From the NCBI GenBank assembly GCA_021234155.1, contig JAJEKV010000005.1, positions 12,036,787 through 12,100,786 of the forward strand: a DNA stretch of 64,000 nucleotides. Direction: 5' to 3'. The position numbers were made by a program, and so were the translations under genes. Source of the DNA: Isoetes taiwanensis (taxonomy: Eukaryota > Streptophyta > Lycopodiopsida > Isoetales > Isoetaceae). The number at the start of each line of letters is the position of its first letter. Position 1 is the first letter of the stretch. Below are positions 2,641-63,069 of the stretch, one piece after another. A model generated the notes under the pieces. It was not told the origin of the DNA and searched no databases. It saw only the letters and a list, made by a program, of their open reading frames with translations.

Positions 2641-2780
2641 TCTGGAGGTGATACTTTGGAATTGGTAGTAAGTGTGGTGGGTATGATGGGTGTGTGTAAG
2701 CTTCACATGGGTGATACTTTAGAATTGGCATACTTTAGAATTGGTAGTAGAGGCAGTAAATGTGGCCTCATGGACCCTGG
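2641..2780. other. Spacer with short 'GTGATACTTTGGAATTGG' motifs
   Basis: Contains two copies of a ~20 base motif GTGATACTTTRGAATTGG, which recurs at about 4988, 5027, 5374 and 5439 and, more diverged, at 6065-6260. It links the 115 bp and the 430 bp repeat fields; nothing else is recognised. Confidence 0.6.
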
Positions 2781-4907
2781 ACTACCACAATCGTCGGATC
2801 TGTCAATCCGACGGCCCAGACTGTATGTTGGAGCCTCTGGACACCTCTCGTTTCGATTATGCTCAATTATGATTGGGGACGCCTATGATTTTAAGATGTC
2901 GAATACGAGTTTGCCTAAGGTTTTGATGGTATATCGAAAGCCTCTATCTGGTTTAAGCTTAAGCTTTTAGAATATGAAATACGGGGATTCAACCTCTACC
3001 AAAATAACTCAATGTCCTAATAAGACTACTTTAACCAATCTAACCAAAGGAGCTAATGTGACTATTTTTTTATCTTAAATCTATGTTTTTTTTATAATAA
3101 CCCATTGAATTGTTTTAGGGATATGGTCTATGGTTTCAAGAATTATATCTATATCAAATCCCCGAACCCCTGTTATTTTGCTACATATTCTAAGCGAGGT
3201 GCACCACGGACTACCACAATCGTCGGATCTGTCAATCCAACCCCCATCAGATATGTTGGAGCCTCTGGACACCTCTCGTTTCGATTATGCTCAATTATGA
3301 TTGGGGCGCCTATGATTTTAAGATGTCGAATCTGAGTTTGCCTAAGGTTTTGATGGTATATCGAGCCTCTATACGGTTTTAAGCTTAAGCTTTTAGAAGA
3401 TGAAATACACGAGGATTCAACCTCTACCAAAATAACTCAATGTCCTAATAAGACTACTTTAACCAATCTAACCCGGTGAGCTAATGTGACTATTTTTTTT
3501 ATCTTAAATCTATGTTTTTTTTTTATAATAACCCATTGAATTGTTTTAGGGATATGGTCTATGGTTTCAAGAATTATATCTATATCAAATCCCCGAAACC
3601 CCTGTTATTTTGCTACATATTCTAAGCGAGGTGCACCCTGGACTACCACAATCGTCGGATCTGTCAATCCGGCGGCCCGCATTTGTATGTTGGAGCCTCT
3701 GGACACCTCTCCGTTTGATTATGCTCAATTATGATTGGGGGCGCCTATGATTTTAAGATGTCGAATCACGAGTTTGCCTAAGGTTTTGATGGTATATCGA
3801 GCCTCTATACTGGTTTAAGCTTAAGCTTTTAGAAGATGAAATACGGGGATTGAACCTCTACCAAAATAACTCAATGTCCTAATAAGACTACTTTAACCAA
3901 TCTAACGGTGAGCTAATGTGACTATTTTTTATCTTAAATCTATGTTTTTTTTTTTATAATAACCCATTGAATTGTTTTAGGGATATGGTCTATGGTTTCA
4001 AAAATTATATCTATATCAAATCCCCACGGAACCCCTGTTATTTTGCTACATATTCTAAACGAGGTGCACCACGATTCACTACCACAATGCGGGATCTGTC
4101 AATCCAATCCTGACGCCCGATCAGTATGTTGGAGCCTCTGGACACCTCTCGTTTGATTATGCTCAATTATGATTGGGGGCGCCTATGATTTTAAGATGTC
4201 GAATCTGAGTTTGCCTAAGGTTTTGATGGTATATCGAGCCTCTATACGGTTTAAACTTTAAGCTTTTAGAATATGAAATACGAGGATTCAACCTCTACCA
4301 AAATAACTCAATGTCCTAATAAGACTACTTTAACCAATCTAACCAAAGTGAGCTAATGTGACTATTTTTTATCTTAAATCTATGTTTTTTTTATAATAAC
4401 CCATTGAATTGTTTTAGGGATATGGTCTATGGTTTCAAGAATTATATCTATATCAAATCCCCACGAACCCCTGTTATTTTGCTACATATTCTAAGCGAGG
4501 TGCACCCTGGACTACCACAATCGTCGGATCAAATGTTGGAGCCTCTGGACACCTCTCAAGTTTGATTATGCTCAATTATGATTGGGGGCGCCTATGATTT
4601 TAAGATGTCGAATCTGAGTTTGCCTAAGGTTTTGATGGTACCTATATCGAGAGCCTCTATCTCGGTTTAAACTTAAGCTTTTAGAATATGAAATCTGAGG
4701 GATTCAACCTCTACCAAAATAACTCAATGTCCTAATAAGACTACTTTAACCAATCTAACCAGTGAGCTAATGTGACTATTTTTTATCTTAAATCTATGTT
4801 TTTTTTTTATAATAACCCATTGAATTGTTTTAGGGATATGGTCTATGGTTTCAAGAATTATATCTATATCAAATCCCCCTGGAACCCCCTGTTATTTTGC
4901 TACATAT
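2781..4907. repeat. Five-copy tandem array, ~430 bp unit
   Basis: The anchor ACTACCACAAT occurs at 2781, 3210, 3642, 4078 and 4511, giving periods of 429, 432, 436 and 433 bases. Each unit contains GGAGCCTCTGGACACCTCT, TGATTTTAAGATGTCGAAT and TAACCCATTGAATTG blocks. On the minus strand each unit has a degenerate tRNA-like stretch, GGTTAGATTGGTTAAAGTAG followed by GAGGTTGAATCCCC, resembling weakened A and B boxes. Copies are very similar except at a few hotspots (just after GTCAATCC, around the CCCCTG near the unit end, and after GGACACCTCT). The array is flanked by members of the 115 bp family on both sides. Confidence 0.92.
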
Positions 4908-14289: not shown

Positions 14290-14301
14290 ATATAACGGCA
14301 A

Positions 14302-17300
14302 GAATAGAATAGAATAGTTTTTTTAATGTCCACGGAGACCAATAGGTCATGGGACCCATATAATGGGCTAATACAATCATTACTACTAGGATTAAAAAAC
14401 CCCTGCCTCGAAAGGTTTTCAAGGGAAAAACCTTTGCAGTAATGATGATACTAGACAAACGGAGATAATGACTACTGAGGGCTCAGTAATTGCAGACGTT
14501 TATCTAGAACCTCAGTATGTATAATGCCAAGTCATGCACAGATGGTGCTCTGAGAAGTTGTGGAAGCGTGGAAATGGAATGCTAAGGTCAAAAAATGATT
14601 CCAGACTATCTCAAAAGCGGGGGCAACTTCGGAAAGAGTATGGCTTTCATCTTCAATAACCATGGCGGCACCGGGCACATAGTCTCACTTCTCAGCGGCA
14701 ATTCGCGGCCGCTCCCATCTACTGTCTCAATCAAGTAGCTGTGGGGACCCCGCGAATTGATGCAATAGCTACAAGCTTGTTCTGGACAATGAAGCAAGCA
14801 AATAAGCTTGGGGCCCCGGTGCCAAGGTGGGATTTATGTGTGCATGATAATGACCGGTTTTCACTTGGGCCAAAATAGCTGATTTCCCATATCTTTTGAG
14901 AAAAAGCGACCATTGAGATATTGTTGCAAAAGCTTCGGGATCCAGCCCGGCAAGCATCGGCGATGTAGTGCAATGCTCTTTCCAACATCGTTTCAAATCT
15001 TTGAGGAGATTCAGCCATGGCAAGTGCAAAACAGGATACCTAACATCATCCATGTGGTGCACCTTGCGGATATAGTGGAGATGGCTTCATGGCGGAATGT
15101 TGAAGAGGCCAAAAACCTGTCTCTTGTAAAAAGAATAGCATAGGGCACCGTTGTTTTAACTCAGAGGCTGTAAGTGAGAAAGGACTTTTGCACCCACCAA
15201 GCTCTCCCAAGCACTAGCACTAATGGCGTGCCCCCACACTTGAGAACCATACAAGAAAAAGCGGGGCTCTACCAAAGCCCGAAACAAGTGGGCTTTCCGT
15301 GGCCAATCATGAATTTCTCTTGAAAACAATTGTCTTGCATTGCATAGAGTGCTCTCCATCCGGCAGACCACCGCTTGGTAATACATTGTTCCCAAAGTGT
15401 GTTCTTCTGAAATTCTACACCAAGATACTTGTAGCTATCTATAACTTCAACCCAGCGGCTATCATAGTGCATAGGGGAACATTGTGACGAGAAGATTGAA
15501 CTACCAAAAGCTTGGTCTTTTGGAGATTAACACTGTGAGACTGTGTTCTCACAAAAAGCTGTCGCGAGCATGTAAATGTTCTTTGCATACTAGCGGCGGT
15601 ATGTGCGAGAAGTGAAACATCATCGGCATACATAAGTTGCCTAATGATATAGTGTGCCAAATGTGGACCTCCGCCGCCATGATTATCAAGCCAATCTTCC
15701 AATTGATCAATGTACATGCCAAAGAGTGTAGGAGATAAAGGGCAACCCCGGCGAACTCCAATATTCTAGTGATTTGAGTACCGATCTTTGGAAATTTAGC
15801 AAAAACCCTTTCATAGAGCCGATAAACTACATTTTGAAGATCTTGTAGAACCCCAAGTGCACGCAAGTGCTTGCCAAAGAAGCTTCAGCGTGGTAATTGT
15901 ATCAAAAGCGTATAAAATCAACAAAGCATATATAGAGGTCTTGTTTCAAACTTGACTATGTTCAATAAGCATGCGCAATTGTGAAAATATGGTCTATTGT
16001 AGAATGGCATGGACGAAAGCCTGCCTCCGCAAAGACACCCCAAGATGTTCTGCCCATGATGTCAACTCGCTTCTCGGTAAAGACCGGGCTAAGAGCTTTG
16101 AAAATATGGAACTTACCATGATCATGTGATAATTAGAAGGGTCATGCTTATCACCGCTTTGTAAATTGGTGCGACCTTCTTGACAGCCCAAGTTTCTAGC
16201 AAGCCTTCTTGCAAAGCTTGATTTAAAAAGAGTAGTGATGATTGGAAGCAATAGCGGACCCCCCTTCCCCCCCCCCATTTAAGCAATTACGCTTTGCAAA
16301 CCTTGAAGATCGGGGAGACTTGCCATTATAAATGCCGCATCCTTCTTTGACTTCCTCCTCTGTGAATTGAAGAATATCACCTACCAAAGGAGGCCGCAAA
16401 TTAAGGACCCCGGGATGATCATATAAGTGGACCAATCGCTCATCCCATTCTTTGCATAGAAATAGGTCCAAGGGTAGGAGGTGGTCGATATAATATTTTT
16501 TGCTAGAAGGTCCGAGGCTCACGTGCGATAATTCAAACATTTGCTTCGATGCTTTCGGCAACAAAGCGTGCCTTCTTCTGCGTTTCAAAATAGACTTATA
16601 ATTACGAATGGCATTATGTGGCGTATCGGCTCAACTATCATTCGCAATTGTTTTTAAAGGCTGCTGCGGTCTTCATCAAACCGCATTTCTAGAAAAGGAT
16701 TTCCTACCAAATGAGCAACACCAGTCGTGTACCAAAGCAAGAGAGGCCAGAAGTAAGCAAAGCATCGGCAAAATCTTTGCATTACGCTCTTGAAGAGTTG
16801 GGTAATCAAAATACACAAGCCGCGAGAGCTAATGTCTGTTCATATTCAAAAGATCTAGAATAAGTCAAAGCGAATCACGAGGCGAGAACTGAATAGCAAT
16901 GGGTTGAAGAGGTGGAAGCTGCCACTTTAATGACAAATAAAGTGGATAGTGATCGATTTTATCTCCTCATCTCTATGCCTTGTGCCAATTCGAAAAATCT
17001 GAAATGAGATCCAAGGCTTGCACTTGGGAAATGACATAATCAACAACACTAGTACCACCACCACTGCCTATCACATGCGCATGTAATACCTTTAGAGTGT
17101 GGCCATTGCTCTAAGCCATTACAAAGTACCATCTCAAAGACTTCACACAAATGGATGAGCTCCCTTCCAAATGTTGAGACGGGTTTGTTAGCATCGGCGA
17201 TGAGCGTGGAAAAGCTCAGATCATTAGCGGACATCCATAAAGGGTCCGCGAACATCCTCAAGTATGAGTTGAGCGGTTTGCATTTCAGCGGTCGCGAGCA

Positions 17301-32107: not shown

Positions 32108-32838
32108 ATGAAAAGAAGTTCGTAAAGGATTAAAGCTAACACTACTTATTGGTAGAAGAATAGATTTCTGATATTCACTTGAGATGAACCGGGCAAGTTG
32201 CAAGCCCAGTTACAAACTATGGGTGCATGTTATGTAGAATGGCATGGGGAAATTCATTCTTGCTACTGCCATGACTTGCATAATCCAAGAGTACCGTGTA
32301 GGCATGACAGGATTTTGCAGGTCATGGGGGCAGCAAGAATGGGTGACCCCATGCCATTCTATTACGTCAAGGTAAGCAAGGTAAGCACCACCGGATCAGG
32401 TTTTGTGCACCACTTTTCATTCTTACCAAGACTGATTCAAGAATCGAGCAGGAATGCAGACCCACTTACCTTGACGTGTTGTATTAAGTCGTCCACAGAG
32501 ACCTTGACGTGTTGTATTAAGTCGTCCAAAAAGACGCTCAAATTGCATGACCCAGTTAAAAATGACGGGCGCTTGTGTTGGATTAAGCAGCCCACAAGGA
32601 TACTCAAATTGCCCACAAGGTGCTAAGTGACAAATATTATGCATGACAAAAGCGCTGACAAATATTATGCATGACAAAAGGGCAGGTGTGTGTGAGAAGT
32701 CTGCAAGGCAAAGGCCCACAATGAAAGGAAACAACAAGAGCAACTGCGAACGAGCGAAAGAGCCGGCCAGGTTAAAAATGCGACAGGGAGGGGTGCATAA
32801 ATGGGGCCTGGGTTACGTAGAGCCCAAAAGCGGGAGCT
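32107..32838 (+). promoter_or_regulatory. Upstream region of ERF gene 1
   Basis: Homologous in blocks to 38617-38730 and 55060-55540 (AAGAAGAGATTTTC, AGTTACAAA, GGCAAAGGCCCACAATGA). It includes a foldback at 32235-32361, a ~37 bp tandem duplication (GACGTGTTGTATTAAGTCGT, 32474 and 32508) and a 27 bp one (GACAAATATTATGCATGACA, 32628 and 32655). A TATA-like TGCATAAATG at 32794-32803 is conserved before all three ERF starts (54073, 55505), about 40 bases upstream of the ATG. Confidence 0.5.
32235..32361. ncRNA. Candidate miRNA-like hairpin or small foldback element
   Basis: Arms 32236-32285 and 32311-32361 are reverse complements over 50 positions with about nine differences, several of which would be G:U pairs; the loop is 25 bases. 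The size and shape resemble a plant microRNA precursor. It interrupts the ERF upstream flank after GGGTGCATGT, so a small foldback transposon is equally likely. I do not recognise a known miRNA sequence in either arm. Confidence 0.4.
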
Positions 32839-33324
32839 ATGATGGGGAAGAAGCGGAGCAGAGCAGCAGTGCAAAATGGAGCAGAAGAGGGGGCTGTTTG
32901 TAAGAAGAGATACAAAGGCGTTAGAATGAGGTCATGGGGCAGATGGGTCTCTGAAATCCGGGATCCGCGCACTGGCTCCCGGATATGGCTGGGCAGCTTC
33001 GCCACGCAGGAGCTCGCCGCTCGAGCGTACGATGCTGCCCTTCTTCGCATCCACGGCCCTGATGCTGCCCTCAATTTTCCCCCACATTCTTCCCCTCCCA
33101 GATTTGCTCCCGATTCTGAGCTTCCAATTAGCCTTGATCCTCCTCCTCAACCTCTTAGACTTGCTGAGGATTTTTTGGAGCAAACCCAATCCCAAATTGG
33201 CCTGTTATTTGAAATGGCCCTTGCCATGCTTCTGCCTGCCGACCTTACCCTTCCCATTTTTAGCCCCATTAGTGCCCACCATGATCTCACATTCTGGGAG
33301 CCTGCTCTCTGGTCATATTCTTAA
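32839..33324 (+). CDS. AP2/ERF transcription factor (ERF gene 1)
   Basis: 161 residues, no intron, starting at the tandem ATGATGGGG. One AP2 DNA-binding domain at about residues 23-80: [38 protein letters not shown] and GPDAALNFP, with a basic KKR lead-in. Such proteins bind GCC-box or DRE/CRT promoter elements in the nucleus. The domain has Val at position 14 (DREB type) and Asp at 19 (ERF type); the overall sequence looks closest to the small DREB A-4/TINY-like group. A conserved block [19 protein letters not shown] and a [10 protein letters not shown] end recur in the copies at 54117 and 55550. The frame is intact and GC-richer than its surroundings. An ERF pseudogene lies 1.8 kb downstream. 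Confidence 0.88.
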
Positions 33325-34728
33325 CTCTCTGCTTTCCGAAGAATCTCCACGCTTCCGTTTTGTATGATCCGTTGGAGCTGTTCACAGCAGAAGTAATTCA
33401 CAGATGGATACAATTCTAGACTTGAAATATATTTCACCATTAGTAAAGTCCCGAAGCCTCAGGAACTGCTCAATGTAAAGGCATGCCCACCATTTCGGTG
33501 CTCCTTAGATTTCTAGAGATGTAATAAGCCATCCCTACCTGCAAACGCCAATCCAAATGGTCCAACCTATGAAATTACAGTTTCAGAACGCAATGTATTC
33601 AATATTAACGTGTAAAAAGGATCCGATCTACCAGAGACAACTGCACATATTAGAATTATTATTATACATACAACGATTACAAATGCAAACTCCTATTATT
33701 AGATCCAATCTTATCTCACACAAAACAGAAGCATTTTCTTTATCGATATGACTAATGTGCTGCTACGGATTTGCTTTCATTGCGGACTTATTGTATCATT
33801 GCTTCATCCATATAATCGGCTTCATGGAGACCATTGGATGAAGAAATATTCCCAAGAATATTCCCAACGCACCGTTTGCTAGAAATAGAGATGGGTCAAA
33901 CCCCATTTTTCATGTCACATTACGACTATGCAACCTCAGTAAGTCAAGATATCCCTAAGTCAATGCAATGTATCAAAATATACTAGTGTTATTATAGAGA
34001 TCAGATCAGACTAATGTGTGCTGCACAATTGGCTGTGTGCAACACCATAAAATTACAACCAATGCGCTCCCCTATAAAGCTTTCACAAAAAATATATGGT
34101 TCCTCTGATAGTCCTTCACAAGAAGCAAATAGAAGCAATACCATCATCATGGATAAATAGGAAAGACGTTGCACAAGCCGAGAAAAATCTGCACTATCTA
34201 AGCAAGGATTTGTACTCTGCAACAAAAAATACGAAGCTTCAACACAAGAACCGGCCTCACTACCCAAGGACTACTGTCCAAAATCCGTGAAAAAGCTGTC
34301 GGTCCAATTCCATAGCACTATCCCGTCAATTCTGAACCCTCAGCCTTGTGTCAAAGAAACTGCATTCAGAGAAACGGCCAGAGAAGATGCCATGTCAGGC
34401 CATTCTACAAGCTCTCGAAAAAGGCTTTCCAGCCGCCTTTATCCTAAAACTTTATAAACCAATAGCTTCATGTCTTGAAACCCCTTTTCTACCGGCAGCA
34501 TTATATGATACAATGTACCAATACAACTACAAAACCATGCAATACCTTAACACACTGCCCCTCAAGTTTATAGTGATCCAACGGTTCAGATCAATCTTGA
34601 TCAGTGTGTTACTGGAGCTATAACACACTGGAGCTATAACCTAGGGTGTTATGAAATGGACAGATCCAGATCGATTTTGATGGTGATCGGATGGCTCAAA
34701 ACTCTCGGGGCAGTGTGTTAAGGGCGAT
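33325..34728. other. Region downstream of ERF gene 1, no gene recognised
   Basis: The sequence after the stop does not match the 3' flanks of the other ERF copies, so the duplication boundary or a later insertion lies near the stop codon. At 34560-34680, CCAACGGTTCAGATCAATC and GATCCAGATCGATTTTGAT are related blocks leading into the foldback at 34729. No ORF is convincing. Confidence 0.5.
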
Positions 34729-35154: not shown

Positions 35155-35420
35155 TCTGAAGGCCAAAATATTGAAGAAGCGGGTGGTGTTTGTATATTAG
35201 AATGAGGTCGTGGGGCAGATGGGTCTCGGATATCTGGGATCCGTGCATTGGCTCCCGAACATGGCTAGTCAGCTTTGCCACACAGGAGCTTACCACTCGA
35301 GCACATGATGTTGTCAGTCTCTTTACCATACTTCTGCCTTTTGATCTTACTGTTCGCATGTGTCGTCAAATTGGTGCCCAGCATGATACACTATGGGAAT
35401 CTACTCTTGTATTCTTAACT
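35155..35420 (+). pseudogene. AP2/ERF pseudogene with internal deletion (ERF copy 4)
   Basis: Begins AAATCTGAAGGCCAAAATATTGAAGAAG, matching the N-terminal codons of the other copies, then [20 protein letters not shown] and a decayed end of the AP2 domain. It jumps to the C-terminal region ([19 protein letters not shown]), skipping about 180 bases that include the end of the AP2 domain and the linker. A TAG stop lies just before the AP2 core (GTATATTAGAATG). It cannot encode a DNA-binding protein. Its downstream flank is of the common ERF type, unlike that of gene 1. Confidence 0.88.
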
Positions 35421-53188: not shown

Positions 53189-53728
53189 CATTAGAGGAAA
53201 AATGAGATCACATTTTGTCCCATTAAGGGATGCTTAAAATGCCATGTCAGCTTTTCAAACTGTCCAATAAGAGAAGAGCTCCAGTGTATCTTGGCAACCT
53301 ATAATTAATGCAACTGCAACTAACTTCTGTAGTATCTTTTTTTCATTATAACTTTTGATCCAGAACTCCGATTCAAAAACTTTTTGTAGCAATGGGTTCG
53401 TCTTCACAAGATCTATCTAGTGATAACCCATTCATACATCTTTTATGATATAAATATACAAGAAATAAGCAAAAAATCATATTTCCTTAAGGTTAACACA
53501 TATGACCATATTGAAACACATCATAACCATATATCATTGGAAAGATCTTTTCATTCCACATCTAATGCAACAAACGCCGCATCATTTTGATAAGTGAATC
53601 AAAAGTTATGTGGAGAAAACAATAGCAATGAAGTTGTTGGTGCTGCATTAATTGGAGTTAATAGAGGGTAGCCATTCCATTGGAGGATTCTTATAGGGAT
53701 GAAATGAGATCTCAAATTTCCTCTAATG
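53189..53728. mobile_element. 540 bp TIR element (MITE) without target duplication
   Basis: Ends are CATTAGAGGAAAAATGAGAT ... and its inverted partner ... TTTCCTCTAATG; the 33 base terminal repeats differ at five positions. The flanks GCCCA (left) and CAAGTTGCTAAG (right) join to GCCCACAAGTTGCTAAG, which is what the uninterrupted flank at 55209 reads. Insertion therefore left no duplication. No coding capacity. Confidence 0.8.
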
Positions 53729-53964: not shown

Positions 53965-54116
53965 CGAAGCAACGAGAGCTCCATCATAAAATCAGAAAGC
54001 AACAAAAGCAAAGACCTAGATTGTCAACGAGGCAAAGAGCTGTCCATATTGGAAATGTCAACAGAGAGGGCTGCATAAATGGGACTTGTCTTACTTAGAT
54101 CCCAAAAGTGGGAGCT

Positions 54117-54593
54117 ATGGTGCAGAAACGGAGCAGAGAGGCAGTCCAAAATATTGAAGAAAGGGATCATGTTTGTAAGAAGAGGTATAAAGGCGTCAGA
54201 ATGAGGTCGTGGGGCAGATGGGTCTCTGAAATCCGGGATCCGTGCACTGGTTCCCGAATATGGTTGGGCAGCTTTGCCACACAGGAGCTTGCCGCACGAG
54301 CATATGATGCTGCCCATTTTTGCATCTATGGCCCTGATGCTACCCTCAATGTTCCACTAGAGCCTTCTTCTAGCAATTTTGTTGCAAACTCTGAGCTTTC
54401 AATTAGCCTTGAGTTTCTTCCTCATCCTCGTAGCCCTGCTGAGGATTATTTGGACCAAACCCAATCCCAAATTGGTCTCTTATTTGACATGGCCCTTGCC
54501 ATGCTTCTGCCTTTTGATCTTACAGTTTGCATGTGTGGTCGAATTAGTTCCCAACATGAATTCTGGGAACCTACTCTCTGGTCATATTCTTAA
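54117..54593 (+). CDS. AP2/ERF transcription factor (ERF gene 2)
   Basis: 158 residues from ATG 54117, no intron. The AP2 domain (about residues 20-78) reads [40 protein letters not shown] and GPDATLNVP, with the same Val14/Asp19 mix as gene 1. The C-terminal half has [20 protein letters not shown] and ends [10 protein letters not shown]. The frame is intact, so it could be expressed. However, its distal upstream flank was moved 14.4 kb away by nested insertions, and a MITE sits in the proximal part; regulation may differ from that of its sisters. An upstream ATG at 54078 is out of frame. A frameshifted tandem copy lies 950 bases downstream. Confidence 0.87.
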
Positions 54594-54959
54594 CTATATT
54601 AGCTGCAAGAAAGTAAGTAGTTGTTTGAATAGTGAACATGGCAATAAATGCTTTTCAACCTCATGTCATGACAAATGATATTATTTTATGGGAATGTCCC
54701 CTTGCTTTGCATGCCATATCAGAGAAACAAAAAATAAACTAGCAATAGGGCAGGTTTGGGGCGAAGGGTCGGGCGTGTTGCATATAGGAGATCCATAATC
54801 ATTCTAACACTCTATTCTTTGTCTATATGGAGATGAAAAAAAAACAAGGTAAAGTATTATTAATTGCCTATTAATTTAAACACCCTTTCGCAAATCTCTC
54901 CTAATGCCTGATATTTTAGGTATAAGGGTATGAATTCGGTGAGAGGTGATGTGGGAGTG
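54594..54959 (+). repeat. ERF gene 2 downstream flank
   Basis: Colinear with 56016-56360: CTGCAAGAAAGTAAGTAGTT, GTGAACATGGCAAT, CATGCCAT.TCAGAGAAAC, GGTCGGGCG and TATAGGAGATCCATAATCAT recur. It defines the right part of a ~1.4 kb unit that is tandemly duplicated with copy 3. Confidence 0.85.
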
Positions 54960-55549
54960 GAACTTTGTTTTGAGAAATAAATTTGAACTGCTATGAAAAG
55001 AAGTCGCTAACTTGGACATGGGAGTGGGACTTTATTTAGAGATGTATATTTGAAAATTATATGAAAAGGAGTTTGAAAAGAATCAAGTTCACTACTTGTT
55101 GGTAGAAGAAGAGATTTTCTTATATTCAATCGAGATGAACTAGGCAAATTGCATAGTTACAAAGTATGGGTGCATGTGGTTGTAAGTTGCCCACAAGGAT
55201 GCTCAAATTGCCCACAAGTTGCTAAGTCACAAATTATGCTTGACATACGCCCATGTGTTGTATTAAGTCTGCAAGGCAAAGGCCCACAATGACGCTCAAA
55301 TAAATAAAGTGTGGACGTAGAAGCAGATGAGAGTCTACCTTGGCATTAGGTGGGGTCAAGACGACTTTTTTTAACGTAGTCAAATTTATGGGATATTGAC
55401 GAAGCAACGAGAGCTCTATTGTAAAACAGAAAGCAATAAAATCAAAGACATAGATTGTCAACGGGCAAAGAGCTGATCAGTGTGGAAATGTCAACAGAGA
55501 TGGCTGCATAAATGGGACTTTTATTACTTAGATCCCAAAAGTGGGGGCT
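54960..55549 (+). promoter_or_regulatory. Upstream region of ERF copy 3
   Basis: The only uninterrupted version of the ERF upstream flank in the window. It serves as the reference empty site for the 540 bp MITE and, with 38457-38732, for the Helitron at 26424. TATA-like TGCATAAATGG at 55504. Confidence 0.6.
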
Positions 55550-56010
55550 ATGGTGCAAAAACAGAGCAGAGAGATAGTCCAAAATATTGAAGAAAGGGAT
55601 CTTTTTCATAAGAAGAGGTATAAAGGCATTAGAATGAGGTCATGGGGCAGATCGGTCTCTGAAAGCCGGGATCCGCGCACAGGCTCCCAAATATGGTTGG
55701 GCAACTTTGCCACTCACCATATGAGTGTACGATGCTGTCTATTTCTGCATCTATGACCCTGATGTTGTCCTTAATTTTCCACTAGAGTTTTTTTCTGGCA
55801 ATTTTGTTGCAAAATTTGAACTTTCAATTAGCCTTGATCTTCTTCCTCATCCTCGTAGACCTGCCGAAGATTTTTTGGATCAAACCCAATCCCAAATTGG
55901 TCTCTTATTTGACATGGCCCTTGCCATGCTTCTGTCTTTTGATCCTACCGTTGCATGTGTAGTCGAATTAGTGCCCATCATAATACATTCTGGGCTCTCT
56001 GGTCATATTC
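55550..56010 (+). pseudogene. AP2/ERF pseudogene, frameshifted (ERF copy 3)
   Basis: Starts [17 protein letters not shown] and reads into the AP2 domain as YKGIRMRSWGRSVSESRDPR, where Trp (GRW) has become Ser and Ile (SEI) has become Ser. A frameshift in the helix (near 55715, FATHHM) moves the rest, YDAVYFCIYDPDVVLNFPLE and [18 protein letters not shown], to another frame. A second frame change occurs near 55950, so the C-terminal LWSYS (55998-56010) is read in yet another frame. The loss of key DNA-contacting residues together with frameshifts argues for real decay rather than a sequencing error. Confidence 0.88.
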
Positions 56011-57240
56011 TTAACTCTTTGCAGCCTCAAATCCTATCAAACAATTTACTATTTAGTATATCAGCTGCAAGAAAGTAAGTAGTTGTTTGAATAGTGAACA
56101 TGGCAATTTCTATTATTGTATGGGAATGTCCCCTTGCTTTGCATGCCATTTCAGAGAAACAAAGTTTAAACTAGCAGTAGTGCAGGCTTGGGGCAAAGGG
56201 TCGGGCGAGTTGTATATAGGAGATCCATAATCATTTAAACACTCTATCCTTTTTCTATATGGAGGAAGAAAAACAAGGTAAGGTATTATTAATTGCCACT
56301 TAATTTAAACACTCTTTCGTGAATCTCTCCTAATGCCAAATATTTTAGGTGTAAGGGTATGAATCTTTATTGTACAAGGATTCTACTTTAAGAAAGCGGT
56401 AATGACCCCCAAGAGGCCACTATGTGTTTTAAGGGTCTCGTAATGCAAAGGAAAAAATGTAGGACCTAGTCTCGTAATACAACGGAAAAAATGTAGGACC
56501 TAAAGGAAAAATGTAAAATGTTCTTTAAACCTTTGTCCCGTTACGTTGGCAAATAGTTTTTACAAGTTTTTTGTTGGGGAAAAAAATGTTTATTAAAAAA
56601 ATATGGGTTTTTTATGCGTGATGAACCATTGAGAGTTCATATAAATATAGAGGGAAAAGACGTAGCTAAAAATGAAAAAGAGAAATAAAGAAGCTTATAT
56701 TGTTTTAAGGGCTTATCAAGACATATATAAGTATACATCAACGTGATATGGGAACACGTGTCTGATCCAGCAACAGTGTAACGCTTGGGTTCCGGCTTCG
56801 TGAATGGTTTCCGGCTTCGTGAATGGGAAAAAAAAAATAAGGATAAGGGTCGAGGTCCGGAGCACCGCCATCGCAGCTTGGGGAAGCGACATCAAATTCA
56901 TCGAGGTCCGGAGCACCGACATCGCCACAGCTGGAAAAGGAAAGAAGTTCGTAAGAAACTCTTAAGGTTAGGTTTAGTTTTTTGGCAAGCGGTGAGTCTA
57001 AAGCACCGTTCTGGACAGAAATCCGTGAGCAGCTAAGGCCAAAATGGATTTTTGTGATAGAGAAAATGGTAATGGAGGCGCAAATAAGAGCTCCATGCCC
57101 TAATCTTCGAAGAAAGAACAGAGCTTGCCGGATTTGGATGGCCTATACTCAAATCAGAGAAGATATGTCTGATTCATGATCTGGGTAAGAGATTCAAATC
57201 ACTCTTGGTGCATTGACATCATTTTTTTCTGTTATTGAGC
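56011..57240. other. ERF copy 3 downstream flank and unassigned sequence
   Basis: 56016-56360 is the ERF 3' flank. 56361-56740 is AT-rich and without features. 56780-57180 has direct repeats GGTTCCGGCTTCGTGAATGG (56789, 56808) and GAGGTCCGGAGCACCG (56852, 56900) and frames such as EIREQLRPKW and MAYTQIREDM that may be an upstream exon of the methyltransferase-like gene. I cannot confirm this. Confidence 0.5.
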
Positions 57241-57698
57241 CTCAGATGCTAACTTGATTGATGCATGCCAAACTAGAAGGTTTTGTGCAACGACAACAAC
57301 CGACATCCTGCTTGATCATGGTTGCATTAGGAGTGAACCCATTCAGGTTTGTGCAATGTATTTGGATCCAAAACATCAGGCTCTAGATGTCGTTTACAGC
57401 TCTGAATAGCATTGGAAAATCGTTTTGGGTAACAATATTTTCTGCTTGCTGATAAAGATGATCATTATGCACAAGTTTTGTATCTATTTAGCAGGATTGC
57501 AGGCATGACCAAAGCCAAAGTTTATCATATCATCATGTTTCTCAGATCTGCCCATTTGCCAAACTACATGTACAGTCAAAGTCAGATTCAAGGTAGTTCT
57601 CATGTTTTCCTTGGGGCTTATGAAGAACAAGGCTGGGAGAGCAAAAAAAATATCAAGGAGTTCCAATATTACATGACTCATGTCACGATAAACAGAAG
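57241..57698 (+). pseudogene. Amino-methyltransferase-like gene, left part
   Basis: Two adjoining frames encode TDILLDHGCIRSEPIQVC, ALDVVYSSE (then a TAG stop and a frame shift), then LADKDDHYAQVLYLFSRIAG, VYHIIMFLRSAHLPN and SHVFLGAYEEQGW. The spacing resembles the middle part (motifs V-VIII) of beta-class DNA amino-methyltransferases, where a strand and helix precede a K-x-N-P-x-P-like loop. The catalytic (D/S/N)PP(Y/W) motif expected just upstream was not found intact. The frame ends INRS at 57698, exactly where the 4.37 kb TIR element begins; the right part resumes at 62067. Confidence 0.6.
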
Positions 57699-58047
57699 CA
57701 TTAGGGCGGATTTGGGGTCTAAAAATGGCCTCCTATCAGCCATTCCACGTCATATTTCCGCTCCTTTTTTCCCATGCCACCTAGGATACCAAAATCTCAT
57801 CATTACAGATTTACTTGGAATATTCACGGAATAAGGGGGATCGCGCATTCATGGCGCCATATGTATTTAATTCTGTTGGTTATCAGACAGACTGATGCAA
57901 CATGTGGCGCTTCTAAAAGCCACTTGCATTATAGCATACCGCAACTCATGGCGGTGTCTCTTGGTTTGTCGGATACCAAGCGTCGCGTGTCCACCGATTC
58001 TTGTGCTATTTTCATTTAGAGGCCATGGCCATACAAGCTTCCCGCCT

Positions 58048-58395
58048 TCCACATTTCAAAATTTGAATGTGTAGGTTGAAGCTTTGTATCGAACTTTCAT
58101 TTCGGTAGGCGCAGTCACGCCTTATGGGTGGTTCACATGGAGAAGTTTAGGCCCTCCCGAGTTACAGCGAAGTCGGCCGATTAAAATTCATTGTTTGCAT
58201 CGGCTCACGCAAGTTGGATCTTCGCGAGGGCTGATTTTTTTCAAAAGCGGGGCTGAATGTTTTTGCCTCGGCCCAAGTTCACATGTTTTAAGCCCGGTAG
58301 CTTCGCAGATTCGTCCATGTGAACCCGGCGTGCCGGGATCTTTACTTCATCCCAATACGGGCTTCCGCCCCTACAATTCGAAATTTGAATTTGCT
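58048..58395. repeat. Imperfect foldback inside the TIR element
   Basis: Left blocks AATTTGAATGTGTAGG, CAGTCACGCC and GGTTCACATGGA (58063-58142) have inverted partners TCCATGTGAACC, GGCGTGCCGGG and CTACAATTCGAAATT (58314-58390). Overall similarity is moderate. It is probably a nested MITE. Confidence 0.55.
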
Positions 58396-58479
58396 TAATG
58401 TATAAAAGCATGGATTGTAGGAGAATGGACTTTTCAATTTCCATATGCACGTTGCAAATTTCAAAAAGCGAGGTTAGAA

Positions 58480-58881
58480 ATGCGGACGTTAAACTCACCT
58501 GAAGCGGGTATTGTCTTTGGGGCATACAAATTGTACACCTTCATTTCTCGTAGATGCGATCCATGCAGTGTGGAAGCTCCAAATGATGTGTGGATAAGGA
58601 TCCAACTGACTCACAAATATGCTCCAGTCTTCAATCGCAAAAAAAGAGGTCTAAAAAATAAGAACTTAGACCTCGACGTGTTGCGTCTTGCAGGCTCAAA
58701 AAGTGTCGACATCTGGGAGGATGGCAGTTTATATCTATTGGATCCGTTGAGTGGCAAGAAACCGTCATTTTGGGACATTTCAAGTTTAGTCCGATTTTGT
58801 GGTGACGGTAACTCTGGCCTCCTGGGATATTGTGAGAGATTGAGAGGGGGCGAAGGCATTGAATCGAATCTGATTCCTTGA
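58480..58881 (+). other. Uncharacterised 133-codon ORF inside the TIR element
   Basis: Begins ATG at 58480 and is open to 58881, with protein-like composition: FISRRCDPCSVEAPNDVWIR, KSVDIWEDGSLYLLDPLSGK and FWDISSLVRFCGDGNSG. I do not recognise a family. It could be a captured exon, a remnant of the element's own protein, or an exon of the split host gene. No neighbouring coding sequence supports a choice. Confidence 0.35.
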
Positions 58882-59456
58882 GATGAGCCGCTTCCGAGAA
58901 GGAAGGGGAAATGTCCATGAAGATGCTAATAAATGACATTATACTTTGCAATGTGAAGGGTTTATACATTCTTGAAGTACAAAGGTTATGGTGTTTGTGT
59001 TTAGATACCTCTAATACAAGAAGTCTTTGACTACTTTTCACAATAGATTCCTTTAAAAATCTATTGCTATTTAAATTATAGCAAAAATGAGTCTTGAAAC
59101 TCTTTAAGTAGTAGAAGAACTCTTTGACTAGTTATCCATTTGATGACCATTTTTTAAGAAAATATGATATGTGACATTCTTATATGCAAACATTCATAAA
59201 ATTTATGAACATTGAAGGTCAAAGCCATCCTTGTTTAAAGAGGATCATATGATCTTGAATCTTCATGCTGTGAAGTAATTGCATATAAAGAAATTAAGCA
59301 CAGTGTGATCCTTGCGTAAAAAGTAAATAGAAACACAAATATTGAACTTACAACTTAGCGTAAACAAATAGTATTTTAATAAACCAACACTTTACATACT
59401 AACACTTTACACTTTAAATAAGATATTTCTTTCTTTCCTTTTACTTGAAAGCTATT
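58882..59456. other. Unassigned AT-rich interior
   Basis: No gene or strong repeat. CTCTTTGACTAGT/GTCTTTGACTACT words recur and CACAGTGTGATCC at 59287 is a stray half of the hairpin motif of the array that follows. Confidence 0.5.
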
Positions 59457-60480
59457 TTTTTTTCAAGATGGATCACACCAAGCGAATATTACATATGCAA
59501 AAAAAAAGGGACACACTAAATTCGCATGGTGTGATCCACTTTCTTATTTGTTGTCAAATTAAAATTAAACACAAGTACTCATTCCTATTTGTATCTAAAA
59601 TGCTTTACCACTCTTAAGTACATAAGTCATTATCCCTTTTCAAAGAGCATATTATTTTTCAAGAAGGATCACACCAAGCGAATAGTACATATGCAACAAA
59701 AATGGAACACACTAAATTCGCATCGTGTGATCCACTTTCTTATTTGTTTTCAAATTAAAATTAAACACAAGTACCCCTTCGCATTTAATGCTTTACCACC
59801 CTAAGTGCATAAAGTTATTAGTCCTTTTCAAAGAATAGAATAGAATAGAATAGTTTTTTTAACGTCCACGGAGACCAATAGGTCATGGGACCCATACAAT
59901 GGGCTAGTACAATCATTACTACTAGGATTAAAAAAACCCTGCCTCGAAAGGTTTTCAAGGGAAAAACCTTTGCAGTAATGATGATACTAGACAAGCAGAG
60001 ATAATGACTACTGAGGGCTCAGTAATTGCTGACGTTTATCTAGAACCTCAAGTATGTATAATGCCAAGTCATGCACAGATGGTGCTCTGAGAAGTTGTGG
60101 AAGCGTGGAATGGAATGCTAAGGTCAAGCAAGCATCACATCAAGCATCCTATTTGCATCTAAAATACTTTACCAACTCTAGTAGTACATAAAGTTATTAG
60201 CCTTTTTCAAAAAGCAAACACTTTATCAATAAATGAGCACGTCACATATCCACACTTAACTTCAAATAAGACACATATATATTTCTTTTATTAAAAGATA
60301 ATCAAAGTAATTTTACTATAGGAAGTCATCTTTTTCCAAAAACATCACACCAAGCGAATTTTGTATAAGCTGAAAGGTTGGAATATACTAAATTCACATG
60401 GTGTGATCCACTTTCTTGTTTGTTGTCAATAGATAATAACACCAAGTCCCTCATCAATAGTCTCCCATTTGCATATAAAA
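59457..60480. repeat. ~195 bp tandem units each containing a hairpin
   Basis: Each unit has an inverted repeat GGATCACACCAAGCGAAT ... ATTCGCATGGTGTGATCC, at 59470-59537, 59666-59733 and 60343-60409, followed by CCACTTTCTTATTTGTT and a tail block with CTTTACCAC and TACATAA. A degraded tail of a further unit lies at 60148. Subtracting the 295 base LINE insertion, the last spacing is two unit lengths. A looser relative is at 61101-61170. Confidence 0.82.
59832..60126 (-). mobile_element. 5'-truncated copy of LINE 1
   Basis: Nearly identical to 14302-14590, the 3' end of LINE 1, including the (CTATT)n tail (minus strand), GGTCTCCGTGGAC and AAAGGTTTTTCCCTTGAAAA. It is a dead-on-arrival insertion of about 295 bases within the hairpin array. 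The high identity indicates that this LINE family was recently active. Confidence 0.85.
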
Positions 60481-62005
60481 TATGTATCATTCCAAGTTAT
60501 ATTATGTTTTATGAACTAAACTTTATCAAAGAGGGTCCCAAAGCAAAATACAAACACTTAATCAATAAGCCAACACTTTACCAACAACCAAAGCTTTATT
60601 AAATAAGATTTTTATGTTATTTTATCAAACCTAACAATGTTTCCATATGTGACACTTTGAGTTAACTGATCCAAAGGCTCATGAAAGTGACATTTTATAC
60701 AATATATCTTTGGAGCTTTTGTGTCGTGGCATTAGTAAACACCTCTAATGGAGCAAATATTTTGTAACTCATTTTTTCAACAACCCTGGATGCATGTCTT
60801 ATCAAACATTTCTTCATTGCAAGGACACCATTCTCATAAGGCTTGCACAATTAAACTAAAAGAGGTCATGGGGCGACTTTCAAGCTCGGCTCCCACAACT
60901 TTACAACGTAAAACTAGATGCCCATTGCCACGAATGTATATCTTGGAAAAGCATGTCTCTTATGTCCATATGTTAGACAACAACGATGCTAGTAATGCTT
61001 TTCCCTAGTCTCAAATCCCGACATCGATAAATATAGCCCAAAGAAAATATTTGATTCGGTGAGTGAATATAAATCAAGAAGAGGGAAAAAAAAAGCAAAA
61101 GGATCACATGACGAAAATCTCACTACACATTTACAAAGTGCATATGCATTTTAAGCATGGTGTGATCCATGTATTATTGAGGGTGCAAATTTGCAAATAT
61201 CCTCCTCTTCAAATCCCCCCCCCCTCCCTTCCCTTTTTTTTTTTTGTAATATACTATCCATAGCATTTATTTTGAACCCTATAGTTCTACCTATTCATTC
61301 GCGTATGAATGTCGCTCCCACATGTAACTCCATAGTCACCCTTCGTTAAGGATAGCATTCTCACCCACGAGCCTATGGATAGATATCCTTCCACCGCCAT
61401 GCCTTTATTGTTTTGTAAGTGATGAACTACTTGAAAGCAATGTAGGAGTACTAGGAGCAATGATGGATGCAATTAGAGATACAGTCGGTCGTTGAATTGT
61501 AAGAATGAATGGCGGGGGAGCAATACGATGAATGGGAAGAGCTTTGAAAGTAGGAAAAACTTCGGAATGAAAATTTGGGTAGTAAAACATGGCATGTAAC
61601 GTACGTTTGCTTGTCCGCACATCGCCTCGCCGTTGTTGCTTAACTCTATGCTCGCCCCGCAAAAACACAGACACTATTGGAGACTTGGATTCCAAATGAA
61701 GAGCGAAGGCGGAGAGGATGCACGTAGCGGCGCTAATGTGAACAATGGAAATCTTGGTGCCAAAATTTGATAAGATGATTGGTGCATGTGGGCATGTGCA
61801 CAGTAGGCAGGAAAAATAGCCATTATTTTGGTCCGCGATACGATTTTCGAAAAATGCGGGCCATTAATGTGGTTGCAATGAATGCACAAACATGTCCTAT
61901 GAAATTTTGCCATGTGGATGCCAAGTAAGCCTGCTCCTCTTTCTACTTGCCAACTAATACTGACTTTGGAAAAAAATGCGCAAACATCATTGGTCGCGAG
62001 AAACA
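60481..62005. other. Unassigned right part of the TIR element
   Basis: No gene recognised. A C-run/T-run (61217-61246) and the loose hairpin relative at 61101-61170 are the only distinct features. Confidence 0.5.
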
Positions 62006-62066
62006 TGACGTGGAATTCTGGCATCCAAGATATGGGCCATTTTGAGACCCCAAATCCGCCCTAATG

Positions 62067-63069
62067 TGAGGCTCGTGTGTTGCCTGTGAAGCTGAAACTT
62101 GAGCTACGGCTGACTCAGGTGACCAATGCACCGAAAAGCACGCCCCTTCCGAAATATCCATTAACTGGTGACGAAGAGGTGGATATAAAAACAAAGGAAA
62201 AATATTTGGAGTATTTTACAGGTAAACCCAAGTTCTCTTGGGCAGCAATGGATGGCGATTTCGTCCATAAGAGTCAGGCAAAGACATCATATATTTACAA
62301 CATGGTAAAGGAGTTGGTTCCACTGGACGGTTGTGTTCTTGATTTTTTCTCGGCCGGCACAGCTTCAAAAGTTGCTCTGATGCAAGGAAAATGCAGTGTT
62401 TCCTTTGAATATGACGATAAGGTATGCCGTTTTCTCAGATCCTTCTTTGAAACTCTAAAGAAAATGGCAAGGCCTGCCAAAGAAGAGGAAGAAGAAAATG
62501 CTATGCCAGATAAGCCAAACAGTTCAGACATGCCGGACATCAAAATAACTCAGGAGATAGAACTTAGCAAGATGGATCAAATACTGGATGCTATGGATCA
62601 GAAAAGTTTCCAAGAGAGGTTACAGGAAACCAGGGCACTGCTAGAACAAACAGAAAAGGCAACTGCTGAGCTCGATCCATAGTTCAAAAAACTGGAGGCA
62701 CTGAACAAAAATTTTGAGAAGATTCTGTCAGTGATAACAGGTTCTGTAGAAAAGCCGCTTCATAATTTCGAATATATGGGAATGTCTGATGATGCATCTG
62801 GAAGTGGTAGACTCGATGGCGATCATTCACCAAAAAGACAGAAGTTGGTTCGCTCTACAAAATACTCTATGGCATTCGAGGATGAATTGATGGATAGTTA
62901 TCAGATGTCAAGGCATGTGCAAGAGATAGCTATCGCAATGGATGTGGATATGCCAAATACTACAGGATATACAGAAATGGACACATCACAGGCAATTGCC
63001 GCAGGAAAGGAGCACGTTAGAAGAATAGCTGCAGAGGTTGGCAATCATGTAGAAAATATCAATCCATGA
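62067..63069 (+). pseudogene. Amino-methyltransferase-like gene, right part (with in-frame TAG)
   Basis: From 62067 one frame runs to the stop at 63067-63069, broken only by TAG at 62680-62682. It reads EARVLPVKLKLEL, GKPKFSWAAMDGDFVHKSQA, then TSYIYNMVKELVPLDGCVL and LDFFSAGTASKVALMQGK with CSVSFEYDDK. This corresponds to the C-terminal motif X/I region of N4-cytosine/N6-adenine (beta-class) methyltransferases (bacterial consensus VLDPFCGSGTT ... GIEID), which binds S-adenosylmethionine. An acidic KEEEEE segment, a heptad-like stretch (MDQILDAMDQKSFQERLQET, ALNKNFEKIL) and a nuclear-localisation-like SPKRQKL follow. The Gly positions of motif I are altered (AGTAS). There is no evident 5' start; the gene continues from 57698. 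Confidence 0.6.

Follow-up and report, generated by a model that had tools for sequence, protein, structure and literature searches.

What kind of enzyme can insert a transposon with long terminal inverted repeats (TIRs) and leave no duplication of its target? Few elements of this sort are known to do so. The question is raised by E1, a 4368-bp element with the ends CATTAG...CTAATG that lies in a 64,000-nucleotide stretch of the Isoetes taiwanensis genome (C1056:12036787-12100786), hereafter the window. The size of a target-site duplication reflects how far apart the transpososome places its two strand-transfer sites, and it serves in the classification of DNA transposons. From E1 and a smaller element, E2, the first-pass annotation had proposed a distinct TIR family that inserts without duplication, and the copies and empty sites collected here from the whole genome (1,658,258,908 bases, 1110 contigs) support that proposal. 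We consider it likely that both elements are non-autonomous and belong to a large TIR group, served by a RAG1/Transib-like transposase of the CMCT type that comes from relatives of about 13.5 kb and joins the element ends to the target with zero stagger.

The TIRs of E1 are 32 nt long and 97% complementary (Table 1). Joining position 57698 to 62067 gives AACAGAAG/TGAGGCTCG (slashes mark joints) in the single frame NRS/EARVLPV, the restoration on which the initial claim of a clean cut was built. The ‘gene’ that hosts E1 is itself a repeat, and its joined flanks (206 + 180 nt, 386 nt in all) led to 433 candidate places in the genome, 40 of which were scored. The joint was confirmed at every one of these: of 41 matches, 40 cross position 206 at 90–97% identity, the forty-first being a 49-nt piece. 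Thirty of the 40 empty sites equal the query in length, ten differ by −15 to +11 bases, and in the six that were fetched the joint matched base for base.

Other copies allowed the same comparison. For C72 (2367 bp), all 40 joined-flank matches cross the joint, are equal in length to the query and are 97–99% identical to it; by eye, this copy appears to be located in a Gypsy RNase H region. Four further joined pairs (C35a, C35b, C307 and C133), searched as one query, gave 40 matches, all of them across a joint, and C208 matched its empty counterpart at L016 with 87% identity over 300 bases and exactly at the joint. The candidate empty site of C308 within the window (28590–28411) and the C36 sites in 13.5-kb copies were too diverged at the joint to be used. 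The empty sites are clean joins, not deletions.

The flanks of filled sites agree with this. The last bases of the left flank were compared with the first bases of the right flank in 26 elements (23 facing TIR pairs together with E1, E2 and the small candidate E3a); the longest exact match was 0 bases in 17, 1 base in 7 and 2 bases in 2, about as expected by chance. Shifting the boundaries by up to 12 bases each way produced just 3–4 base matches at offsets that were inconsistent between elements. Neither a consistent duplication at other boundaries nor deletion at the empty sites, the two outcomes that the first-pass annotation had put forward as speaking against its claim, was seen. A preference for T/A at the flanks is weak (23 of 52 positions against an assumed 0.30, one-sided p 0.02, post hoc). 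The family combines long TIRs, many dispersed copies and clean empty sites, all used to recognize TIR cut-and-paste transposons, with the lack of a target-site duplication.

The bare hexamer CATTAG occurs 52 times in the window against 42.9 expected, a count reached in 11 of 100 shuffles and not unusual; the long TIRs are unusual. With the longer pattern CATTAGGGCGGATTTGGGG and at most 3 mismatches, 1140 + 1166 ends were found in the genome, against 119 + 114 for the reversed pattern, and with the E2-type TIR CATTAGAGGWAATTTGAGATCTC there were 1228 + 1241 ends against 0 + 0, many of them in facing pairs about 555 bases apart. Two related TIR groups therefore comprise about 2,300 and 2,470 near-exact ends, the first including some 230 expected from the control. 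From the listed places we picked 23 pairs that face each other and whose 19-base ends are perfect, so that their CATTAG ends are a matter of choice while their flanks are not; collecting CATTAG...CTAATG pairs from the genome and comparing copies with empty sites, which had been proposed as a check, returned the clean joins described above. The pairs span 103 bp to 15.5 kb and include E1's own class of about 4 kb (pieces of E1 are 87–97% alike to the 4-kb copies) and a ‘13.5-kb’ class of nine long copies (12.1–15.5 kb) that are about 87–92% alike in long pieces. One of the long copies (L061-L062, C22:300650-316189) is enlarged by about 2 kb of sequence in which one strand is nearly pure pyrimidine.

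E2 had been presented as an independent case, removable without duplication when compared with a paralogous site. The joint with the AP2 paralogue beginning at 55175, CCCA/CAAG, is indeed clean; the adjoining 12-base tandem unit differs, however, and the joint is ambiguous in the third paralogue beginning at 32592. Because of these two features, the E2 case taken alone is weaker than had been stated. The kinship of the two elements was, on the other hand, understated. They were said to share six end bases, and their ends are related over a greater length, with 18 of the first 24 bases agreeing in the right-hand TIRs; E2, whose own TIRs are identical in the first 12 bases and in 18 of 20 overall, belongs to the second, related TIR group with its 2,469 ends. 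The scoring matrix for TIRs was built from the very ends that it later picked out, and the scores of E1, E2 and E3a are therefore circular. E3a and its paralogous copy E3b may belong to the TIR group on the likeness of their ends.

A search of the longest copies for a transposase, also recommended at the outset, revealed a broken transposase-like gene on one strand of the 13.5-kb copies. The C-terminal part of this gene has 1830 candidate places in the genome (150 scored), several with long open frames. An intact relative, C931 (L064:375-3065), is an open reading frame (ORF) of 897 amino acids, about 60% identical to the C-terminal part of the broken gene, and its own C-terminal half has 3279 candidate places; 96 of these were scored, and many of them likewise hold long open frames. 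E1 itself retains a piece of the gene's N-terminal region (Table 1) and is a 4-kb non-autonomous form of the 13.5-kb transposase-encoding elements. The 13.5-kb copies (for example L031 and L037) also hold further ORFs that have no significant Pfam match, among them an acidic protein of about 250 amino acids and a coiled-coil protein.

The residues of C931 resemble those of RAG1, the enzyme that cleaves antibody genes, in which D600, D708, C727/C730, H937/H942 and E962 are spaced 108/19/3/207/5/20 (PMC4914335). In C931 the same catalytic and zinc-binding set is found at D436, D541, C562/C565, H776/H781 and E801, spaced 105/21/3/211/5/20, the D and C residues having been chosen with the RAG1 pattern in mind. 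In the CATTAG family's own gene, H(4)H and E were read directly and the remaining residues in broken frames alone; all seven members of an alignment (A4) share H(4)H, and six of them have the E. RAG1 also dominated the matches in four PDB searches (15/15, 15/17, 3/3 and 15/16), and a 217-amino-acid piece matched the Pfam RAG1 model at E 0.024. When this model was run over the whole genome, 22 places matched at E ≤ 10, every one within model positions 517–619, around the last catalytic residue E962, and there were no matches in 14 control genomes. At least 8 of the 22 overlap transposase places, when set against 21 such places from the listing.

The CMCT clade has been characterized by 5'-CA..TG-3' termini and the residues D, D, C(2)C, H(3-4)H and E, in lineages with target-site duplications of 2 to 5 bp (PMC12730594). 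The pattern D, D, C(2)C, H(4)H, E is present in the intact relative C931, and the elements have CA..TG termini; CATTAG ends were the criterion by which copies were chosen, and the empty sites confirm that these are the true ends. The Isoetes elements differ in having no duplication at all, which is new relative to the described CMCT lineages, and because this feature of the clade is lacking we file the family as CMCT-like and not as a CMCT member. Relative to RAG1/Transib, the whole-protein similarity is not significant, the TIR does not start with CAC and the host is a plant. Transib makes a 5-bp duplication, and this too is absent in the Isoetes elements.

In the mechanism that we favour, which is also the simplest, a DDE transposase of RAG1/Transib-like build, encoded by the 13.5-kb relatives, would excise the element precisely at its CATTAG...CTAATG ends, and both of these would be joined in a concerted, non-staggered manner to opposite strands at directly facing target phosphates. 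There would be no gap to fill, and hence no target-site duplication. We infer a C931-type protein as the mover of both E1 and E2, and a target cut without stagger.

A number of observations weigh against this interpretation. Each of the nine 13.5-kb copies that were read has frameshifts in the transposase-like gene, and C931 is known as an ORF, not as an element with defined ends. The likeness to RAG1 is below significance throughout: six of the seven aligned members match the Pfam model with a best E of 0.0082, the best PDB match to RAG1 (E 0.028) comes from a hand-joined read-through, and the best match in the genome scan has an E of 0.43, with none over the cut-off. The whole 897-residue protein shows no RAG1 match in Pfam at E ≤ 5, and in the PDB RAG1 accounts for three of its six matches, behind a coiled coil as the best. 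Some empty sites differ in length from the query, namely those of C35a (seven sites, six of them 5–7 bases shorter and one 1 base longer), C35b (27 sites, two equal and 25 one base longer) and C133 (five sites, two equal at 97% identity and three 6–9 bases longer at 87–90%). Finally, the mechanism is read from finished insertion products, and the evidence comes from one species.

Two of these points may have simple explanations. The assembly of Isoetes taiwanensis is described as made from nanopore reads (PMC8566536), so part of the breakage of the gene in the 13.5-kb copies may be sequencing error. The length differences at C35a, C35b and C133 are apparently indels away from the joint, in homopolymer runs; the single empty site of C307, one base longer than the query, has its extra base beside a run of A. 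For C35a, which lies in a histone H3-like gene, we take the shortening to be an indel elsewhere, because there is no matching repeat at the joint GTAGGAT/AAGGGGG and because the joined flanks read KRVTIMPKDLALARRIRG across it with nothing added, as in histone H3. At the C35:85420 insertion (L031, around 59–550), the final conserved codons of a gene copy that is histone H3-like, and possibly CENH3-like, are interrupted by a 13.5-kb element.

Could a duplication be hidden within the ends themselves? If the elements were Tc1/mariner-like or ESTA/PHISTA-like and duplicated TA, their true ends would be GGGCGG...CCGCCC and the duplicated TA would lie within a preferred CATTAATG target, and the symmetrical CATTA...TAATG would mask it; CMCT and PHIS elements that duplicate TA have been described (PMC12730594). 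Such a transposon would leave CATTAATG at its empty sites, which instead read AACAGAAG/TGAGGC in six fetched copies of the E1 site, CTAGTTAG/TCCCTC at C208, CCCA/CAAG at E2 and GAAGTT/TCAGTT at C72. Readings with a TA or TTA duplication are ruled out by these sites, and we give the idea practically no credence. In the same vein, the elements showed no TA duplication of the Tc1/mariner (Stowaway) kind and no CATTAATG at empty sites, no 3-bp TWA duplication as in PIF/Harbinger, and neither the CACTA terminus nor the 3-bp duplication of CACTA/EnSpm. Membership in the Spy/PIF-Harbinger (PHIS) lineage is very unlikely as well. It was raised in part by the inner TIR sequence GGGCGGATTTGGGG, which is reminiscent of Tourist ends. 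Spy elements likewise insert with zero duplication (PMC4482050, PMC11304231), but no AAATTT target (AAA/TTT) occurs among the 26 flank pairs, and the 897-residue relative has no known Pfam transposase domain and a C(2)C + H(4)H pattern that fits CMCT/RAG1 instead.

The remaining two alternatives concern what the transposase does. If a CMCT-type enzyme excised the elements and host end joining then inserted the DNA into breaks, zero duplication would be silent on the target cut; the evidence consists of finished insertions, and the flank preference noted above is at most weak, as such a route would allow. End joining often trims or adds bases, whereas all readable joints are clean, without loss or filler, and each TIR group has over 2,000 near-exact ends; we therefore regard this route as improbable, if the least so of the four. 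Scarcely more improbable is that some other, unseen enzyme mobilizes the CATTAG elements, with the RAG1-like gene as a passenger. The other ORFs of the 13.5-kb copies and the broken state of the gene in the nine copies read would suit a passenger; the gene nevertheless encodes the residues expected of a DDE transposase, E1 keeps a fragment of it, and there are 3,279 candidate places for its relatives. Searches for other relatives or domains yielded little: neither the Pfam search with the whole of C931 nor that of NCBIfam, which returned coiled-coil models only, named a transposase, and pattern searches for transposase relatives in viral_contigs (38 matches) and genome_contigs (27 matches), collections with few or no plant sequences, gave none that was confirmed.

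Non-staggered joining by a RAG1/Transib-like transposase, which we continue to favour, would have a precedent in outcome if not in enzyme. Spy, of the PHIS superfamily, is a group of TIR elements that insert without duplication within AAATTT (PMC4482050), for which blunt, non-staggered insertion has been proposed (PMC11304231). The Isoetes family has TIR cut-and-paste structure and the lack of a duplication in common with Spy; its target is not AAATTT, and by motif test its transposase residues are unlike those of PHIS. In the literature that we searched on duplication-free TIR elements and on Isoetes or lycophyte transposons, Spy was the described eukaryotic case found, and the main text of the Isoetes genome paper makes no mention of TIR, transposase, CACTA or DNA transposon. 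Bacterial insertions of the IS1272 type, which replace an inverted repeat, were set aside as different, nothing being replaced in Isoetes. Another plant family to be compared is Lanisha, reportedly from a moss, which was set beside the Isoetes family by description alone. Lanisha (Repbase Reports 2020) is of the CMCT type and has been placed in a clade with 2–5 bp duplications, and the fungal Plavaka B has termini, CATCA..TGATG, that resemble CATTAG..CTAATG, differing in its 2 or 3 bp duplications and its host (PMC12730594).

On balance we lean, by a small degree, towards an undescribed, superfamily-level branch of RAG1/Transib (CMCT) transposases, numerous in a lycophyte and in part still intact there, with zero-stagger integration; if a RAG1-type transposase makes such a joint, cut-and-paste transposition free of duplication would have arisen independently a second time, beside Spy, and this in plants and in a RAG1-like catalytic core. 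Zero spacing in a RAG1-like enzyme would be a measure of the freedom with which this geometry can change within one catalytic architecture, and Spy, as the other TIR group described as duplication-free, would gain a natural counterpart for comparison. Annotation pipelines that require a duplication will miss such elements, and insertions that leave nothing but the element are of interest for gene-transfer tools, as has been argued for Spy.

Table 1. Positions of E1, E2 and associated features in the window.
Feature	Position	Strand	Basis
E1, 4368-bp non-autonomous TIR element without target duplication	57699..62066		TIRs, empty sites, 4-kb copies elsewhere 87–97% alike in pieces
Left TIR of E1, starts CATTAGGGCGGATTTGGGGTCT	57699..57730	+	TIR comparison
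Right TIR of E1	62035..62066	-	TIR comparison
Host repeat reading frame, left half (part serving as empty-site query)	57493..57698	+	
Host repeat reading frame, right half; weak DNA-methylase-like match	62067..62682	+	Pfam N6_N4_Mtase E 0.012, below cut-off
Remnant of transposase gene N-terminal part, within E1	58663..58845	+	44% identity over 61 amino acids to residues 67–127 of L064:375-3065, E 1.2e-13
Later insertion nested in E1, not the element's own	59835..60129		Missing from four 4-kb copies compared
E2, 540-bp TIR element (miniature inverted-repeat transposable element), related TIR CATTAGAGGAAATTTGAGATCTC	53189..53728		TIR match, paralogue comparison, genome ends
Paralogous empty site of E2	55175..55300	+	
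Third paralogue of E2 site, without element, ambiguous at joint	32592..32724	+	
E3a, possible 164-bp member, CAATAGGGC...CTAATG	54743..54906		Ends from TIR likeness alone, no empty site
E3b, 161-bp paralogous copy of E3a (87%)	56175..56335		Own ends score within shuffle range

The insertion nested in E1 has a second copy in the window at 14301–14591 (97% identical), resembles a short interspersed nuclear element in appearance and has a GAATA-type repeat at one end; it was considered as a control for duplication and dropped, its target being rearranged. The reading frame split by E1 is multi-copy, and a methylase-like gene of that kind in Isoetes taiwanensis would be of interest in its own right, the N6_N4_Mtase match being below the cut-off. 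At 2760–4900 there is a tandem array of about five units of some 430 bases with CTAATG in each, and these units differ by odd short insertions near CGG/CCGG that may be assembly errors at methylated sites. An AP2/ERF-like gene is present in three or four paralogous copies (32749–33326, 54108–54593, 55541–56078 and 35160–35313) with differing insertions between them.

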